NCBI GenBank assembly: GCA_020444515.1
Contig: JAHLKX010000003.1
Coordinates: 124,001-188,000 of the forward strand
Direction: 5' to 3'
Length of the DNA stretch: 64,000 bases
Source: Bacteroidota bacterium
GTDB lineage: Bacteria; Bacteroidota; Bacteroidia; Bacteroidales; JAADJA01
Of the stretch, positions 23,483 through 30,754 are shown in pieces. The translations under genes were made by a program, and so were the position numbers. How positions within the stretch are numbered: position 1 is the stretch's first letter; every line of letters begins with the position of its first letter. Under the pieces are notes generated by a model, which did no database searches, had not been told where the DNA came from, and saw only the letters and a program-made list of their open reading frames with translations.

Positions 23483-25057
23483 ATGAGAAATTTTAAGAAC
23501 ATTTTTACAGCGATTGTGGTGATTTTTTTCCTTGGATTATTGTCAGGGAATATTTCAGCACAAGAGAAACCTACCTCATTGGCAGACAAGCCCAACATCC
23601 TTGTCATCTGGGGTGATGATATTGGACAATCCAACATCAGTGCCTATACGATGGGCCTGGTAGGATACCACACACCCAACATTGATCGCATTGCCGACGA
23701 AGGAATGATCTTTACCGATTATTATTCGGAACAGAGTTGTACAGCCGGCAGATCCTCTTTTATTCTTGGTCAAAGTGTATTTCGGACCGGCCTAAGCAAA
23801 GTAGGATTACCGGGTGCCAAAGAGGGCATTTCAGAAGAAGATCCTACCATTGCGGAACTTTTAAAACCCCTTGGTTATCGGACCGGCCAATTCGGAAAAA
23901 ATCATTTGGGTGATCGCGATGAGCACCTGCCAACAAACCATGGTTTTGATGAATTTTATGGTAATCTTTACCATTTGAATGCTGAAGAAGAACCCGAACT
24001 ACTTGATTACCCGGACCCTGAAGAGTATCCCAATTTCCGGGAGAAGTATGGACCCCGAGGTGTGATTCATTCTTATTCGGATGGCAGAATTGAAGACACC
24101 GGACCATTAACCAAAAAGAGAATGGAAACCATCGATGATGAATCCATAGAAGCAGCCAAAAAGTTTATTCGCGAAGCCGTTGATTCAGGTGAGCCTTTTT
24201 TCGTTTGGTGGAACGGAACCCGTATGCATTTTCGGACACACGTAAAAGAAGAGTTAAGGGGAATTTCCGGGCAGGATGAATATGCGGATGGTATGGTAGA
24301 ACATGATATGCATGTTGGGCAGCTATTGGATCTTTTGGATGAACTCGGGATTGCGGATAATACATTTGTTCAATATGGAACCGATAATGGACCCCATAAG
24401 AACTCATGGCCTGATGCAGCGGTGAGCCCTTTCAGGGGAGAAAAAAACACCAACTGGGAAGGAGGATGGAGAACACCCGCTATGGTGCGCTGGCCAAATC
24501 ATATAGAAGCCGGTACGATTTGTAATGAAATTGTTTCGGGCATGGACTGGATGCCAACTTTCCTGGCAGCAGCAGGCGATGATAATATTAAAGAAAAATT
24601 GCTGGATGGTTACACGGTAAATGGTAAAACCTTTAAAGTTCATTTAGACGGTTATAATATACTACCCATGCTTAAAGGTGAAACTAAAGAAAGTCCGCGT
24701 CGCGAAATCTTTTACTTTTCAGATGATGGCGACCTGACAGCACTTAGATATGACGATTGGAAACTGATCTTTATGGAGCAACGCGCAACAGGCACCCTGC
24801 AAGTTTGGTCCGAACCTTTTATACCACTGCGTATACCACTAATTTTCAATCTGAAAAGAGATCCTTATGAATTTGCCAATATTACATCGAATACTTATTA
24901 CGATTGGGTCTTAGACCATGCTTTTCTTTTGGTTCCCGCCCAGGATATTGTAGGACAGTTTTTAATGACATTCCAGGATTATCCTCCCAGGATGGAAGCC
25001 GCCAGTTTCAGTCTTGACAAAGTAATGGAAAAGCTTCAAACGAGTGGAGCTCGTTAA
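23483..25057 (+). CDS. Exported sulfatase (arylsulfatase-like)
   Basis: A 524-residue sulfatase that would hydrolyse sulfate esters. The signal peptide ends near residue 26 (NISAQ). The metal-binding start is VIWGDD (Asp45, Asp46). The active-site core is SCTAGRSSF with Cys86, the C-x-A-x-R variant of the C-x-P/A-x-R motif whose cysteine is converted to formylglycine. Further expected residues are GKNHLGD (near 139), ending in a conserved His, and QYGTDNGPHKNSWPD (near 297). No formylglycine-generating enzyme or anaerobic maturase is encoded in the window, so maturation must come from elsewhere. It lies between the DUF481 barrel gene and a Spy-like gene. The substrate class cannot be told. 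Confidence 0.93.
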   Translation: MRNFKNIFTAIVVIFFLGLLSGNISAQEKPTSLADKPNILVIWGDDIGQSNISAYTMGLVGYHTPNIDRIADEGMIFTDYYSEQSCTAGRSSFILGQSVFRTGLSKVGLPGAKEGISEEDPTIAELLKPLGYRTGQFGKNHLGDRDEHLPTNHGFDEFYGNLYHLNAEEEPELLDYPDPEEYPNFREKYGPRGVIHSYSDGRIEDTGPLTKKRMETIDDESIEAAKKFIREAVDSGEPFFVWWNGTRMHFRTHVKEELRGISGQDEYADGMVEHDMHVGQLLDLLDELGIADNTFVQYGTDNGPHKNSWPDAAVSPFRGEKNTNWEGGWRTPAMVRWPNHIEAGTICNEIVSGMDWMPTFLAAAGDDNIKEKLLDGYTVNGKTFKVHLDGYNILPMLKGETKESPRREIFYFSDDGDLTALRYDDWKLIFMEQRATGTLQVWSEPFIPLRIPLIFNLKRDPYEFANITSNTYYDWVLDHAFLLVPAQDIVGQFLMTFQDYPPRMEAASFSLDKVMEKLQTSGAR

Positions 25058-25113
25058 TTTACACTGGTATTAACTATTTAATAATTCGAACCAATACAAA
25101 ACAAAATAATAAT

Positions 25114-25605
25114 ATGAAAAAATCAATTATTGCAGTGCTACTGCTTTTTGCCGGCACCATGGTGATGTCGCAAACCACTGATGACTATCTCGAGATCATG
25201 AGGAGTGTCTTGAAAACCGAGAAAAAAGCTGCCATTGCAGAAGTGATGGCATTCAATGATCAGGAAGCTGAAGTTTTCTGGCCATTGTACAATGAATTCA
25301 ACGAAAAGATGTACACCATTCAGAGCAAACGTGTTAAAATCATCAAAGACTATGCTGCCAATTACAGCAATATGACAGATGAAAAAGCGGATGAATTATG
25401 GACTGCTGCGCTGAACTTTAAACAGGAATCATTGAACCTGACCAAACAGTATTATAAAAAGTTCAAAAAGATTCTACCTGCTTCAAAAGCAGCAAAATAT
25501 TTCCAGGCTGAGAACAAAATTGCGACAATGATTGATTATGAGCTGGCCGCTGAGATACCAATGATTGAAACTGAGCAACATAGGGATCATGAAATTATTT
25601 ATTAA
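25114..25605 (+). CDS. Small exported helical protein, Spy/CpxP-like
   Basis: A 163-residue protein with a signal peptide (MKK plus hydrophobic core, cleavage near MVMSQ, residue 20). The mature part is almost entirely charged, amphipathic helix, including FWPLYNEFNEKMYTIQSKRVK and LTKQYYKKFKKILPASKAAKYFQAENK. Size, location and helical character resemble periplasmic Spy/CpxP-type chaperones, although a clear LTxxQ motif is missing. It lies 56 bases after the sulfatase gene, and its 3' end overlaps the start of the HAD lipoprotein gene. Confidence 0.6.
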   Translation: MKKSIIAVLLLFAGTMVMSQTTDDYLEIMRSVLKTEKKAAIAEVMAFNDQEAEVFWPLYNEFNEKMYTIQSKRVKIIKDYAANYSNMTDEKADELWTAALNFKQESLNLTKQYYKKFKKILPASKAAKYFQAENKIATMIDYELAAEIPMIETEQHRDHEIIY

Positions 25606-26626
25606 TAATAGCATATTCAACAATCCGGTGAAAATCATCGGATTGTTGTTTTTTTACGCCACTATTTCTTGTTCTTCTCCTGAACCTGATCAGCAAGTAA
25701 ATACTCCTCAGCAAGACCCCCTCCCCTCCTGGAATGAGGGAGTGACAAAAAATGCAATCATCGATTTTGTTGTCAGTACAACAGATCCCAACAGCAAATC
25801 TTTTATACCTGAAAACAAAAGAATTGTAGTTTTCGACAACGACGGAACTTTGTGGAGCGAACAGCCCTTGTATTTTCAGTTCTTATTTGTGATCGACAGA
25901 ATTAAAAAAATGGCACCCGAACATCCTGAATGGAGAGAAAAACAACCATTTAAAGCTGTGCTTGAGGATGATTTGGAAACAGTTAAAAAATCAGGTGTGC
26001 CGGGTCTTTTAACACTAACCATGGCTTCGCATTCCGGTATGACAACCGATGAATTCAAACAGATAGTCAATGATTGGATCAACACAGCCAAACACCCAAA
26101 AACCGGAAAATTATATAAAGAGATGGTTTATCAGCCCATGCTTGAAGTATTGGAATACCTTCGAGCCAATGGATATAAAACTTTCATCGTCTCCGGAGGA
26201 GGTATCGATTTTATGCGGCCATGGACTGAAGAGGTGTATGGCATTCCACCAGAGCAGGTCATAGGAAGTTCAGGAAAATACGAATTCAGGATGAGCAACC
26301 ATAATCCTGAGATTGTTAAACTTCCTGAAATTGATTTCATCGACGACAAAGAAGGAAAACCAATCGGTATTCAAAAATTCATCGGCAGAAAACCGGTGGC
26401 AGCCTTTGGCAACTCCGATGGCGATCTGCAAATGTTGCAATGGACAGCTTCCGGAGAAGGTAAACGGCTGATGGTTTACATTCATCACACGGACGCTGAG
26501 CGCGAATGGGCTTATGATCGTGATTCACACATCGGTCATTTAGACAAAGGACTGGATGAAGCTCAGGAAAAGGGATGGATTATTGTGGATATGAAAAACG
26601 ATTGGAATCGGATTTATCCGCAATAA
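25589..26626 (+). CDS. HAD-superfamily phosphatase-like lipoprotein
   Basis: A 345-residue protein with a lipoprotein-like signal (hydrophobic stretch then ATISC, cysteine near residue 28). The HAD motifs are complete: FDNDGTLW (DxDGT nucleophile, near residue 85), FIVSGGG (motif II, near 200), a lysine in the following region, and FGNSDGDLQML (motif III, near 272). This fits class-IB phosphoserine phosphatase-like enzymes, here acting outside the cytoplasm. An earlier ATG at 25565 gives eight more residues, but the later one places the signal peptide normally. Either start overlaps the preceding gene, which implies coupling. It is followed by a strong hairpin. Confidence 0.8.
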   Translation: MKLFINNSIFNNPVKIIGLLFFYATISCSSPEPDQQVNTPQQDPLPSWNEGVTKNAIIDFVVSTTDPNSKSFIPENKRIVVFDNDGTLWSEQPLYFQFLFVIDRIKKMAPEHPEWREKQPFKAVLEDDLETVKKSGVPGLLTLTMASHSGMTTDEFKQIVNDWINTAKHPKTGKLYKEMVYQPMLEVLEYLRANGYKTFIVSGGGIDFMRPWTEEVYGIPPEQVIGSSGKYEFRMSNHNPEIVKLPEIDFIDDKEGKPIGIQKFIGRKPVAAFGNSDGDLQMLQWTASGEGKRLMVYIHHTDAEREWAYDRDSHIGHLDKGLDEAQEKGWIIVDMKNDWNRIYPQ

Positions 26627-26695: not shown

Positions 26696-27979
26696 ATGAA
26701 AAAAGATCGGGTCTCCTCCTCATACCGTGGATTTATATTCCACCTTCACCCACCGAAGGTGGCGGCTGCATCAATAAAATTCAACCGTACTTTTGGCATG
26801 GGCGGAATGGCATTGTTGCTTTTCACTTTACAACTGATCACCGGTCTATTATTGCGCTTTGCATATGTTCCCACCCCTGCTGAGGCTTATGATTCCATAC
26901 TTTTCATCGACCAGGAAATATTATTTGGGGGATTTATCCGGAACATCCACTATTGGAGCGGAATATTTTTTGTAATCGTTACTTTTCTGCATTTCATCCG
27001 GGTATTTTATTCGCAGGCGATCTTTGTTCCGCGCAGAATAAACTGGATCATCGGAATGGGATTGTTGATCCTGGCAATCCTATCCAATTTCACAGGCTAC
27101 CTCCTCCCCTGGGATCAGCTATCTTATTGGGCGGTGACTGTGGCTACCAATATGCTCACGTATATTCCACTGGCTGGTGAATGGATGTTATCGGTGATCC
27201 GTGGTGGGGATGATGTGGGTTCGGCAACATTGCTTAATTTTTACAATTTCCATACAGGCATATTACCCATTGCAATGGTTTTGCTGATGGTTTGGCATTT
27301 TTGGAAAGTTCGGAAGGCCAAAGGTGTGGCAATTGCTTTGAATGAGGAAGAGGAGCGGGTTTCAACCAATCCCCATCTTTTACTCAAAGAGCTCACCATT
27401 GGGCTGATGCTGCTTGCCCTTATTTTTATAATATCAGCCCTATTCAATGCTCCTTTGCAGGAAAGGGCCAATCCGGCATTCAGTCCAAACCCGGCCAAAG
27501 CACCCTGGTATTTTATGGGGATACAGGAACTGCTCTTGCACATTCATCCATTTTTTGCTTTTATCGTATTGCCGCTGATCTTTTTTACCGGATTGATCTG
27601 GATGCCGTATGCCATCAAAGAAGGGAATCAGGGTACCTGGTTCCACTCTGAAAAAGGAAAAAAGCTGGCCATTCAGGCAGCATGGCTTTCCCTTCTGATA
27701 ACACCCCTGATCGTATTACTTGAAGAATATGTCCTTCACTTTGAAGTCTGGCTGCCTTCCATACCAAAGTTCGTCAGCGAGGGATTGGTCCCAATGGCGC
27801 TGCTGCTGACATCATTTGGGATTTATTTAGGAATTTTGAAAAAAAGATATAAACCCACAATCACCGAACTGATCATTGCCCTGTTCACAGTGTTTGTGGT
27901 TTCATATATTGTATTGACCATCATCGGAATATGGTTCCGCGGTGAAAGTATGAAATTGTTTTGGCCATGGCAAATATAG
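26696..27979 (+). CDS. Cytochrome b (b6-type, N- and C-terminal parts in one chain)
   Basis: A 427-residue membrane protein that would carry two b haems and the quinol site of a Rieske/cytochrome b complex. Haem-ligand histidines are His85 and His99 in one helix and His186 and His201 in another. The 14- and 15-residue spacings match cytochrome b6 rather than mitochondrial-type cytochrome b. The quinol-site motif appears as KAPWYFMG (residues 268-275) in place of PEWY; APWY variants are known in menaquinol-using complexes. About eight membrane helices are visible, and the subunit IV-like half is fused. The gene overlaps the Rieske gene and begins right after a hairpin. Menaquinol as the donor is inferred. 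Confidence 0.92.
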   Translation: MKKDRVSSSYRGFIFHLHPPKVAAASIKFNRTFGMGGMALLLFTLQLITGLLLRFAYVPTPAEAYDSILFIDQEILFGGFIRNIHYWSGIFFVIVTFLHFIRVFYSQAIFVPRRINWIIGMGLLILAILSNFTGYLLPWDQLSYWAVTVATNMLTYIPLAGEWMLSVIRGGDDVGSATLLNFYNFHTGILPIAMVLLMVWHFWKVRKAKGVAIALNEEEERVSTNPHLLLKELTIGLMLLALIFIISALFNAPLQERANPAFSPNPAKAPWYFMGIQELLLHIHPFFAFIVLPLIFFTGLIWMPYAIKEGNQGTWFHSEKGKKLAIQAAWLSLLITPLIVLLEEYVLHFEVWLPSIPKFVSEGLVPMALLLTSFGIYLGILKKRYKPTITELIIALFTVFVVSYIVLTIIGIWFRGESMKLFWPWQI

Positions 27980-28446
27980 GTAGACGCAACTTTGTAAAAA
28001 GATTATGGGCAGCCCTTGGGATCATTGCAGGGGCCGAATTGCTGATTGCTTTCTCGGGTTTTTTCAGTGCCAAAAGAAAGCCATTGACATCCGATTCTCA
28101 AAAATTAGTTGAAGCAGGAAAGGTTAGTGATTTTCAAATGAATTCTGTTTTCCCTTTTCGAAGCGGGAAATTTTTCCTGGTGCGATTGAGCGATGGTGGT
28201 TTTATGGCTGTTTCCCTAAAATGCACCCACCTGGGCTGTTCGGTGATATGGAATGATGAGAAGAAAACATTTGTATGTCCATGCCATGCCTCGTCCTTTG
28301 ATCAGGTTGGTCAGGTTATCAGTCCCCCGGCTCCACGGGCACTGGATACCTATCCAGTCATCATAGGGGAAGGTAAAGTAATGGTGGATATTACAAAATC
28401 GGTTCGACGGAAACAATTCGAATCTTCGCAGGTAACTTACGCATAA
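27967..28446 (+). CDS. Rieske [2Fe-2S] protein
   Basis: A 159-residue iron-sulfur subunit that takes electrons from quinol. The N-terminus (RRNFVKRLWAALGI) has a twin arginine before a single membrane anchor, consistent with Tat-dependent insertion. The cluster ligands are in CTHLGC (Cys86, His88, with Cys91 for the disulfide) and CPCH (Cys104, Cys106, His107). SFDQVGQVISPPAPRALDTYPV continues the fold. The ATG at 27967 is preferred over a TTG six bases upstream. It overlaps the cytochrome b gene by 13 bases and ends 1 base before the octahaem gene. Confidence 0.93.
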   Translation: MANIGRRNFVKRLWAALGIIAGAELLIAFSGFFSAKRKPLTSDSQKLVEAGKVSDFQMNSVFPFRSGKFFLVRLSDGGFMAVSLKCTHLGCSVIWNDEKKTFVCPCHASSFDQVGQVISPPAPRALDTYPVIIGEGKVMVDITKSVRRKQFESSQVTYA

Positions 28447-28447
28447 T

Positions 28448-30754
28448 ATGAAACAAAAAGATACATGGATCAAAACCGGAATAATCGCAACGATTTTTAT
28501 CGTATTGTCGATGCCACTGTATCTTCTGAAAAAAAACCTAAGTAATCCAGAAAACATAAACCTAAATAATGGGCCCACCTATGTTGGCAAAAAAATCTGT
28601 ATTGACTGTCATAAGGTTCAGTATGAACTCTGGGAGGGCTCCGACCATGACCTCGCCATGGACTATGCCACGGATTCCAGCGTGCTTGGAAATTTTAAAA
28701 ATGTCGAATTAACTGCACAGGGCAAACTTCACAAATTCTATAAAAAGGACGATAAGTTTTATGTATATACCGACGGAGCTGATGGCACCATGCAGGAGTT
28801 TGAAATCAAATACACCTTCGGTTACCATCCCTTACAACAATACCTGGTTGAATTTCCGGGTGGCCGACTTCAAACCCTACCCCTAACCTGGGATACCATA
28901 ACAAAAACATGGTATCATATGGCCGATTCCGTATACGCTGATGAAGATGTGAATGCTATGAACTGGCTACACTGGACCAACCAGGCACAAAACTGGAATG
29001 GTATGTGCGCCGACTGCCACTCCACCAATTTGCAGAAAAACTTCGACCTCAATACCAATACGTACAGCACAACCTGGTCGGAAATTGATGTGAGCTGTGA
29101 AGCCTGCCATGGGCCTGCATCGGAACATATCAAATGGGCCAACCTGCCTGAGATGGCCCGTCCACAAAACACCAATACCGGTTTGATCGTTCAAACAAGC
29201 AATATTGATAATCGCCGGTATGTCGATTTATGTGCCCGCTGTCACACCCGGCGCAGTGCATTGCGCGATTACGATTTTGACTGGAGCGACCTGCTTGATC
29301 AAATGATCCCTGAACTGGTGCGCGAACCACTCTATTTCCCGGACGGACAAATTTTGGAAGAGGATTATGTTTTCGGCTCTTTCACTCAAAGCCGCATGTA
29401 CATGGAAGGTGTGCAATGCAATGATTGCCATGATGTGCACAGCGGTAAGCGCCATCAGGAAGGAAATATCCTCTGTGTGCAATGCCATCGATCGGATGTG
29501 TACGATACTTATGAACATCACTTTCACCAATATTCCGGGAAAAGCAACCTTGACGTTGTAGATGAATTTGGTGTAAAGCAACCAGTTGGGTCCGGTGCTC
29601 AATGCATCAATTGTCATATGCCAGGCCGGTATTACATGGGTGTGGATTACCGCCGCGATCACAGCTTCCGTGTACCCCGACCCGACCTTTCGGATAAACT
29701 GGGAACTCCAAATGCTTGCACACAATGCCATGCCAATAAATCCAATCAATGGGCAGCGGGTTTTATGAAAAAATGGTATGGGGAAAGCATCCGGCCCCAT
29801 TATGGTCTCGCACTGGCGGCAGGTGCAAGAATGGAGCTCGATGCATTTGAAAAACTGAGAAGGCTCATCAATGACGATCTCTATCCCATAATCGTAAGAG
29901 CTACGGCACTGTCTATCCTCGGCGAAAACTACCCTGATAGCAGTGCGTCCATTTTAAAAAACAATATGAAGGATGTGGAATCATTGATCCGATACACAGC
30001 TGTTCATCATTTTCAAATCACCAGCCTTGAAGGCCTGGATGCCGTTATACCCCTTTTGAATGATCCTGTCAGGGCTGTCCGTTATGAAGCCGCCATCAGG
30101 CTTTCGATCATTCCAGCCGACCAATTCCCGGCAAAAAGCAAACATTCACTGGAGGAGGCGCTTGATGAATACAAGGAGGCTATGGAATATTCCGCTGATT
30201 TTGCCGCCAGTCGACACAATCTCGGAAATTATTATCGAAGCAGAAACAATCCAACAAAAGCGGTGGAAAACTATAAGGCCGCCATCAACATCGATAACCT
30301 GTTTTACCCAGCCAAGGTAAACCTGGCAATGATCTATAACCAACAAGGCCAAAACGACAAAGCTGAACAATTATTCAGGGAGGTAATCAGTGAACAACCA
30401 GATAATGGGGAGATCTATTATTCGCTTGGGTTGTTGCTGGCAGAACAACAAAAATTCGCAGAAGCTGCAAACATGCTGGAAGAGGCGATCAAAAAAATGC
30501 CTGAACGCATCCGGATCCGGTATAACTTAGGTTTGATCTACCAGTATCTGAATGAACCTCAAAAGGCTGAAAAGGTTCTGCTTCAAGGCCTTCAAGTCAG
30601 TCCGGAAAATTTTGACCTTTTATTTGCGATTGCTGATCTTTACATGAAACAAGGAAAACGGGAAAAAGCACTTCAGTATGCCAGCCTTTTAAATGATTTG
30701 TATCCGGAGAATGAGGCTGGTCGAAATATTTTAAATGTTATTGAAAACCAGTAA
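28448..30754 (+). CDS. Membrane-anchored octahaem cytochrome c with HEAT/TPR tail
   Basis: A 768-residue protein with one N-terminal membrane segment (residues 10-28) and eight CxxCH haem sites at residues 51, 187, 217, 262, 324, 343, 386 and 424. A HEAT-like stretch (about 470-560, with RAVRYEAAIRLSI) follows. Then come about five TPR units (about 575-765), for example ASRHNLGNYYRSRNNPTKAVENY and GEIYYSLGLLLAEQQKFAEAANML. It starts one codon-space after the Rieske gene, so the three genes form one operon. It probably takes the place of cytochrome c1/f as the electron exit, with the TPR tail docking a partner. An enzymatic role, as in other multihaem cytochromes of nitrogen or sulfur metabolism, cannot be excluded. 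Confidence 0.9.
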   Translation: MKQKDTWIKTGIIATIFIVLSMPLYLLKKNLSNPENINLNNGPTYVGKKICIDCHKVQYELWEGSDHDLAMDYATDSSVLGNFKNVELTAQGKLHKFYKKDDKFYVYTDGADGTMQEFEIKYTFGYHPLQQYLVEFPGGRLQTLPLTWDTITKTWYHMADSVYADEDVNAMNWLHWTNQAQNWNGMCADCHSTNLQKNFDLNTNTYSTTWSEIDVSCEACHGPASEHIKWANLPEMARPQNTNTGLIVQTSNIDNRRYVDLCARCHTRRSALRDYDFDWSDLLDQMIPELVREPLYFPDGQILEEDYVFGSFTQSRMYMEGVQCNDCHDVHSGKRHQEGNILCVQCHRSDVYDTYEHHFHQYSGKSNLDVVDEFGVKQPVGSGAQCINCHMPGRYYMGVDYRRDHSFRVPRPDLSDKLGTPNACTQCHANKSNQWAAGFMKKWYGESIRPHYGLALAAGARMELDAFEKLRRLINDDLYPIIVRATALSILGENYPDSSASILKNNMKDVESLIRYTAVHHFQITSLEGLDAVIPLLNDPVRAVRYEAAIRLSIIPADQFPAKSKHSLEEALDEYKEAMEYSADFAASRHNLGNYYRSRNNPTKAVENYKAAINIDNLFYPAKVNLAMIYNQQGQNDKAEQLFREVISEQPDNGEIYYSLGLLLAEQQKFAEAANMLEEAIKKMPERIRIRYNLGLIYQYLNEPQKAEKVLLQGLQVSPENFDLLFAIADLYMKQGKREKALQYASLLNDLYPENEAGRNILNVIENQ

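Follow-up and report, generated by a model that had tools for sequence, protein, structure and literature searches.

Rieske/cytochrome b complexes that oxidise quinol hold a central place in respiration, and where their electrons go is set by the third subunit. In a 64,000-nucleotide stretch of a Bacteroidota genome (assembly GCA_020444515.1, contig JAHLKX010000003.1, positions 124,001 to 188,000; hereafter the window), we found a gene unit that probably encodes a non-canonical menaquinol-oxidising complex of this kind, with a c-type cytochrome bearing eight haem motifs and a TPR tail in place of cytochrome c1 or f. Three genes on the same strand fill positions 26696-30754 of the window (Table 1). 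An earlier note on this DNA had described them as overlapping or abutting, and indeed the cytochrome b and Rieske genes overlap by 13 nucleotides when the ATG start of the latter is used, and 1 nucleotide separates the Rieske gene from the octahaem gene. The note had further proposed the octahaem protein as the third subunit. Genome comparison supports this well, through a conserved gene order, the absence of a cytochrome c1 gene and a membrane anchor specific to the operon, whereas the physical assembly of the three proteins is something that we infer.

Conserved linkage of the three genes

With an alignment of the haem region as the query, 38 of the 393 genomes compared, all from the same order, were found to encode the octahaem-TPR protein, three much weaker matches being left out of the count; the raw protein as query against the genome contigs gave two weak TPR matches only. 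A related cytochrome b, also sought with an alignment, was found in 37 of the 393. Both proteins are present in 36 genomes, with the octahaem-TPR protein alone in 2 and the cytochrome b alone in 1 (Fisher 2e-47, a value that describes association rather than independent events, as the genomes are related and such values overstate independence). The genomes include drafts of varying completeness.

The genes are linked in 33 of the 36 genomes that have both. In 23 of these, from 14 families, the cytochrome b and octahaem genes lie close together on the same strand in the order cytochrome b-Rieske-octahaem, a count that includes one genome with linkage inferred from contig ends (G311), one without a recognised Rieske frame between the two genes (G282) and one with an inserted 368-residue frame (G348). 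The genes are divergent in 10 genomes, all in families f8 and f15, and unlinked in G111, G012 and G015; in the latter two a different contig carries a shorter form of the cytochrome b, whose gene is accompanied by one for an HAO-type octahaem protein. The gene-neighbourhood search suggested in the earlier note thus shows that the three-gene arrangement recurs: 14 families of the order have it, as does one genome from beyond the order (G747). The genes that flank the operon mostly differ between genomes.

A search of 30 genomes, including that of the window, gave no match to cytochrome c1 (PF02167), while the positive control, Caulobacter, was matched. The statement that the unit has neither a c1 nor an f gene therefore holds for c1 throughout the genomes searched; for cytochrome f it holds among the three genes, no whole-genome search for cytochrome f having been made.

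The octahaem protein is also anchored differently within the operon. In every one of the 25 operon copies the N-terminal helix is plain, with no cysteine after the hydrophobic stretch, compared with a cysteine at the lipobox position in 45 of the 48 non-operon copies (Fisher 1e-16 for operon versus others), and because of this difference we regard the subunit as the probable recruit of a lipoprotein family. Going by the sequences, the likeliest course is that a lipoprotein became membrane-anchored on joining the operon and that some copies later reverted or were lost. A tree sets the majority of solo and divergent copies apart from the operon copies, but several label changes are needed in it and six lipoproteins of the same order fall on the operon side; as the tree has no established root, the direction and number of conversions are presumptive.

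Properties of the three proteins

The cytochrome b matches Pfam Cytochrome_B with an E-value of 4e-45. The histidines to which the earlier note had pointed, His85/99 and His186/201, are its sole candidate pairs for haem b and are invariant in seven aligned relatives. A b6-like core, a part resembling subunit IV and extra C-terminal helices form one chain: hydropathy indicates at least 8 membrane segments and misses helix D, which bears His186/201, and subunit IV and further helices are therefore fused to the b6 core. The Qo loop reads KAPWYF instead of PEWY, as it does in all operon copies (KSPWYF in f8/f15), so that the Trp-Tyr pair is kept but an acidic residue at the second position is not. 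Cysteine is absent from the window cytochrome b, which therefore offers no site for the covalent haem cn of b6f complexes. Its best NCBIfam match is ExtP, at 248.3 bits and under the curated equivalog cut-off of 290.

The Rieske frame starts at ATG 27967 or TTG 27961 and ends at 28446. Its assignment as a Tat-type Rieske protein is confirmed by the RR motif GRRNFVKR, by a Pfam Rieske match over the cut-off (E 2e-13) and by the cluster motif CTHLGC...CPCHASSF, in which the Ser is kept and the usual Tyr is Phe.

The CxxCH motifs of the octahaem protein are found at residues 51, 187, 217, 262, 324, 343, 386 and 424 (coordinates 28598, 29006, 29096, 29231, 29417, 29474, 29603 and 29717). All eight are kept in every complete homologue, with CX3CH at haem 8 in some same-genus copies; in the same-genus solo lipoproteins L042-L046 this motif is CNSQCH. 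Of the features noted earlier, the eight motifs, the N-terminal helix and the TPR repeats stand; the HEAT match, at 23.9 bits, falls below the Pfam cut-off of 27.7, although the model is nonetheless helical in that region.

Table 1. Features of the cytochrome b-Rieske-octahaem unit in window coordinates
Feature	Position	Strand	Remarks
Cytochrome b gene	26696..27979	+	427 aa; Pfam Cytochrome_B, haem-b ligands His85/99 + His186/201
Rieske [2Fe-2S] protein gene	27967..28446	+	RR motif, one membrane helix, cluster motif, Pfam Rieske
Octahaem c-type cytochrome gene with TPR tail	28448..30754	+	768 aa; proposed third subunit replacing c1/f
N-terminal membrane anchor helix, octahaem protein aa 2-31	28451..28540	+	no lipobox-position Cys
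OcwA/MccA-type octahaem domain, aa 42-480	28571..29887	+	beta-rich insert between haems 1 and 2
TPR tail, about aa 562-768	30131..30751	+	helical HEAT-like repeats precede; possible docking surface

A structure search with the full-length model listed TPR or other helical-repeat proteins as matches, and the haem domain was therefore folded alone (50 sequences; predicted local distance difference test score, pLDDT, 88). This model matched OcwA with Z 18.9 (3.4 Å, 327 residues), 6QVM with Z 12.8, MccA with 8.9 and NrfA with about 5-6. By sequence, too, the closest solved protein is OcwA (profile E 7e-17), followed by 6QVM (3e-9), cytochrome c554 and, marginally, MccA. The 6QVM structure is an undecahaem cytochrome of Carboxydothermus, OmhA going by the description in PMC7829351. 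The likeness to enzymes of nitrogen or sulfur metabolism that had been noticed in the sequence thus holds for the fold, by which the modelled haem domain belongs to the OcwA/MccA/NrfA multihaem superfamily.

Electron acceptors and alternative readings

A rather unlikely alternative is that the complex substitutes for complex III in supplying cytochrome c oxidases, in which case the octahaem protein would hand electrons to an ordinary periplasmic cytochrome c. Haem-copper oxidase is enriched in genomes that carry the unit, being found in 18 of 22 carriers versus 6 of 20 non-carriers (p 0.0015), but carriers and controls in this comparison were unmatched for lineage. Eight carriers (G213, G214, G216, G282, G298, G300, G359 and G370) have an oxidase and no ActD of alternative complex III. 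ActD is, however, present in ten carriers, the window's genome among them, and neither haem-copper oxidase nor ActD was found in three carriers that are at least 93% complete (G111, G147 and G226). The operon is not beside oxidase genes in the window's genome, where contig C2 holds a caa3-type oxidase cluster with ActD about 15 kb from COX1 and C10 holds a cbb3-type cluster far from the operon. Given the three carriers that lack an oxidase and the ActD near caa3, a link to oxygen is not general.

As acceptors, NrfA (11 of 22 carriers versus 7 of 20) and NosZ (4 of 22 versus 1 of 20) were not significantly associated with the operon. We also noted an NrfA remnant with four in-frame stops in the window's genome (G000:C11:484217-484699), and an intact NrfA in G011 of the same genus.

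It is improbable, in our judgement, that the octahaem subunit acts as a terminal reductase in its own right, in which haem 2, lacking a distal histidine, would bind a nitrogen or sulfur oxyanion, a metal or a shuttle, so that the whole would act as a menaquinol:substrate reductase with energy conserved by the Q cycle. The fold match, strong to OcwA and fair to MccA, agrees with such a role, and haem 2 is open in OcwA, MccA and c554 (PMC6703420), among the closest solved relatives. Over 73 homologues, the non-motif histidines 67, 227, 357, 360 and 405 are invariant, whereas 331 is kept in 70, 358 in 58 and 157 in only 35; W155, W176 and N184, just ahead of haem 2, are likewise invariant. Because only six or seven well-conserved distal candidates are thus available for eight haems, one haem may be open, which we take from the alignment as a lead rather than a result. 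On the other side, ligands are unassignable in a model that has no haem coordinates, the equivalence to haem 2 of OcwA is one of sequence order only, and the window protein keeps His157, which could occupy the site. Moreover, no substrate-specific gene is linked to the operon, and the lack of significant association with NrfA and NosZ also speaks against a reductase. We consider correspondingly poor the chances of the fuller version, a bc-type complex with a built-in reductase of OcwA/MccA type, in which a converted envelope lipoprotein would supply an open haem for Q-cycle-coupled substrate reduction.

Quite improbable is the alternative that the octahaem-TPR protein belongs to an independent family of envelope electron-transfer lipoproteins and is merely co-transcribed, with the acceptor of the Rieske/cytochrome b pair encoded elsewhere. 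Solo lipoprotein copies are widespread, and the pair in f8/f15 has its own multidomain c-type cytochrome, with the octahaem gene divergent beside it. Against this, the plain anchor is specific to the operon copies, and the three-gene order is kept over 14 families despite changing flanks. Very unlikely is a part in an extracellular electron transfer route like that of the Geobacter Ext cluster, since the resemblance of the haem domain to the cell-surface reductases OcwA and OmhA and the best NCBIfam match of the cytochrome b to ExtP are offset by a score under the curated cut-off (248 versus 290), by the lack of porin-cytochrome genes by the operon and by an N-terminal helix that ties the operon protein to a membrane.

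Several observations weigh against a dedicated menaquinol-oxidising complex with an octahaem third subunit, the reading that we prefer. Besides the relatedness of the genomes compared, the carriers with neither oxidase nor ActD and the ActD near caa3 in the window's own genome, the octahaem gene stands alone in five same-genus genomes and widely elsewhere in the phylum. The earlier note would have counted such separation from the cytochrome b and Rieske genes as refutation; taken literally it occurs, but the solo copies differ from those in the operon, being mostly lipoproteins. Judging from gene content, the octahaem lipoprotein of f8/f15 need not be a subunit. Three solo copies (L098, L100 and L125) have the plain anchor; the genomes of the first two (G111 and G133) have a cytochrome b of this type elsewhere, and no related cytochrome b was found in G544, the genome of L125.

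A model for electron transfer

In the complex that we propose, cytochrome b and the Rieske protein would oxidise menaquinol at the periplasmic face by the customary bifurcation, as family membership and the conserved ligands suggest; menaquinol as the donor and operation of a Q cycle are, like the assembly of the subunits, inferred. The electron from the Rieske protein would pass to the membrane-anchored octahaem protein of OcwA/MccA fold rather than to a mono- or dihaem c1 or f, and the octahaem protein would act as a haem wire, presumably with passage through all eight haems. The TPR tail probably docks a periplasmic partner that accepts the electrons. Final acceptors may be several, perhaps including the haem-copper oxidases found in most carriers.

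Gene neighbourhoods and other Rieske/cytochrome b arrangements

In families f1, f83 and f73 (window 23483-26626; L088; L105), a sulfatase gene and then a HAD-family gene precede the operon at close range. Sulfatases also occur near other copies, operon or solo (L096, L158, L159 and L163), which may reflect mere sulfatase abundance. In G295 (L108, 3540-6292), genes for an NrfD-type membrane protein, two sulfur-transport proteins and a rhodanese are found about 200 bp upstream of the operon on the same strand.

Another Rieske gene in the window's genome lies beside one for a 907-residue cytochrome b fused to 11 CxxCH motifs (L029, G000:C4, 6397-9504, minus strand). Elsewhere in the genus and order, too, there are cytochrome b frames of about 885-970 residues, one of which (L036) we examined and found likewise to have 11 CxxCH. 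The neighbours of L029 encode a PhsA-like molybdoenzyme, an NrfC-like protein, NrfD, sulfur-transport proteins, rhodaneses, a type III sulfide:quinone reductase and DsrE2, and from its gene content this Rieske/cytochrome b complex may be linked to sulfur. Yet another arrangement occurs both within the genus and beyond it (L033, 349-6301; L123 and L124). Here a Rieske protein is encoded together with a 348-residue cytochrome b in which PEWY is retained and with an HAO-type octahaem protein (PF13447); a Tat-type molybdoenzyme comes next in L033, in a layout similar to the Nap-eHao cluster of Caldithrix.

Comparison with known systems

Judged by sequence criteria, the window unit is set apart from bc1 (no c1), from b6f (no haem cn cysteine), from the anammox Rieske/cytochrome b complexes (no NAD(P) oxidoreductase subunit, only three genes being conserved between varying flanks) and from the ExtP equivalog (248 versus 290 bits). 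Rieske/cytochrome b units with multihaem cytochromes are already published from anammox bacteria, the Geobacter Ext cluster and Caldithrix. The anammox complexes Kuste4569-4574 and Kustd1480-1485 similarly combine a b6-like cytochrome b and a Rieske protein with a hexa- or octahaem cytochrome instead of cytochrome f, and the subunits of Kuste4569-4574 comigrate, together with an additional HAO-like octahaem protein (PMC12954380). In the anammox complexes, however, the subunit-IV-like proteins are separate, the membrane part carries c-type haems and an NAD(P) oxidoreductase subunit is present, whereas the window unit has three genes, a fused subunit IV and, as its octahaem protein, one of OcwA type that ends in a TPR tail.

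The ext cluster of Geobacter encodes a Rieske protein (ExtO) and a b6-like cytochrome b (ExtP) with multihaem cytochromes (ExtO/ExtP/ExtQ with ExtM, ExtN and ExtS; PMC5877670), but its cytochrome b is split, its cytochromes have 12, 10 and 4 haems, and it includes a porin (ExtI) and a rhodanese. In Caldithrix abyssi, the Nap-eHao cluster holds a Rieske/cytochrome b pair with no c1 nearby beside eHao, the adjoining octahaem cytochrome proposed as the acceptor (PMC5317091). There the octahaem protein is eHao in a nitrate-reduction cluster, in contrast to the OcwA/MccA fold and TPR tail of the window protein, which has no adjacent Nap genes.

OcwA of Thermincola potens (PDB 6I5B; PMC6703420) shares the haem-domain fold, down to the beta insert that separates haems 1 and 2, but is a cell-surface protein with nine haems rather than eight CxxCH, lacks a TPR tail and is not encoded with Rieske/cytochrome b partners. 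The octahaem sulfite reductase MccA (PDB 4RKM) has eight haems and a related fold; unlike the window protein, in which all haem motifs are plain CxxCH, it is a haem-copper enzyme.

We found no description of a Rieske/cytochrome b/octahaem-TPR unit from Bacteroidota in the open-access literature, most subscription papers not being searchable, and within that literature the anchor switch and the TPR subunit of OcwA type appear to be new; the window unit also differs from the published ones in its minimal form of three genes. That multihaem cytochromes accepted electrons from such complexes early on is a published idea (Dibrova 2013, as cited in PMC5317091). If our reading is right, environmental bacteria possess an uncharacterised respiratory complex in which an envelope lipoprotein family has supplied an eight-haem docking subunit, and the unit would be a compact case for multihaem cytochromes as early acceptors from Rieske/cytochrome b.

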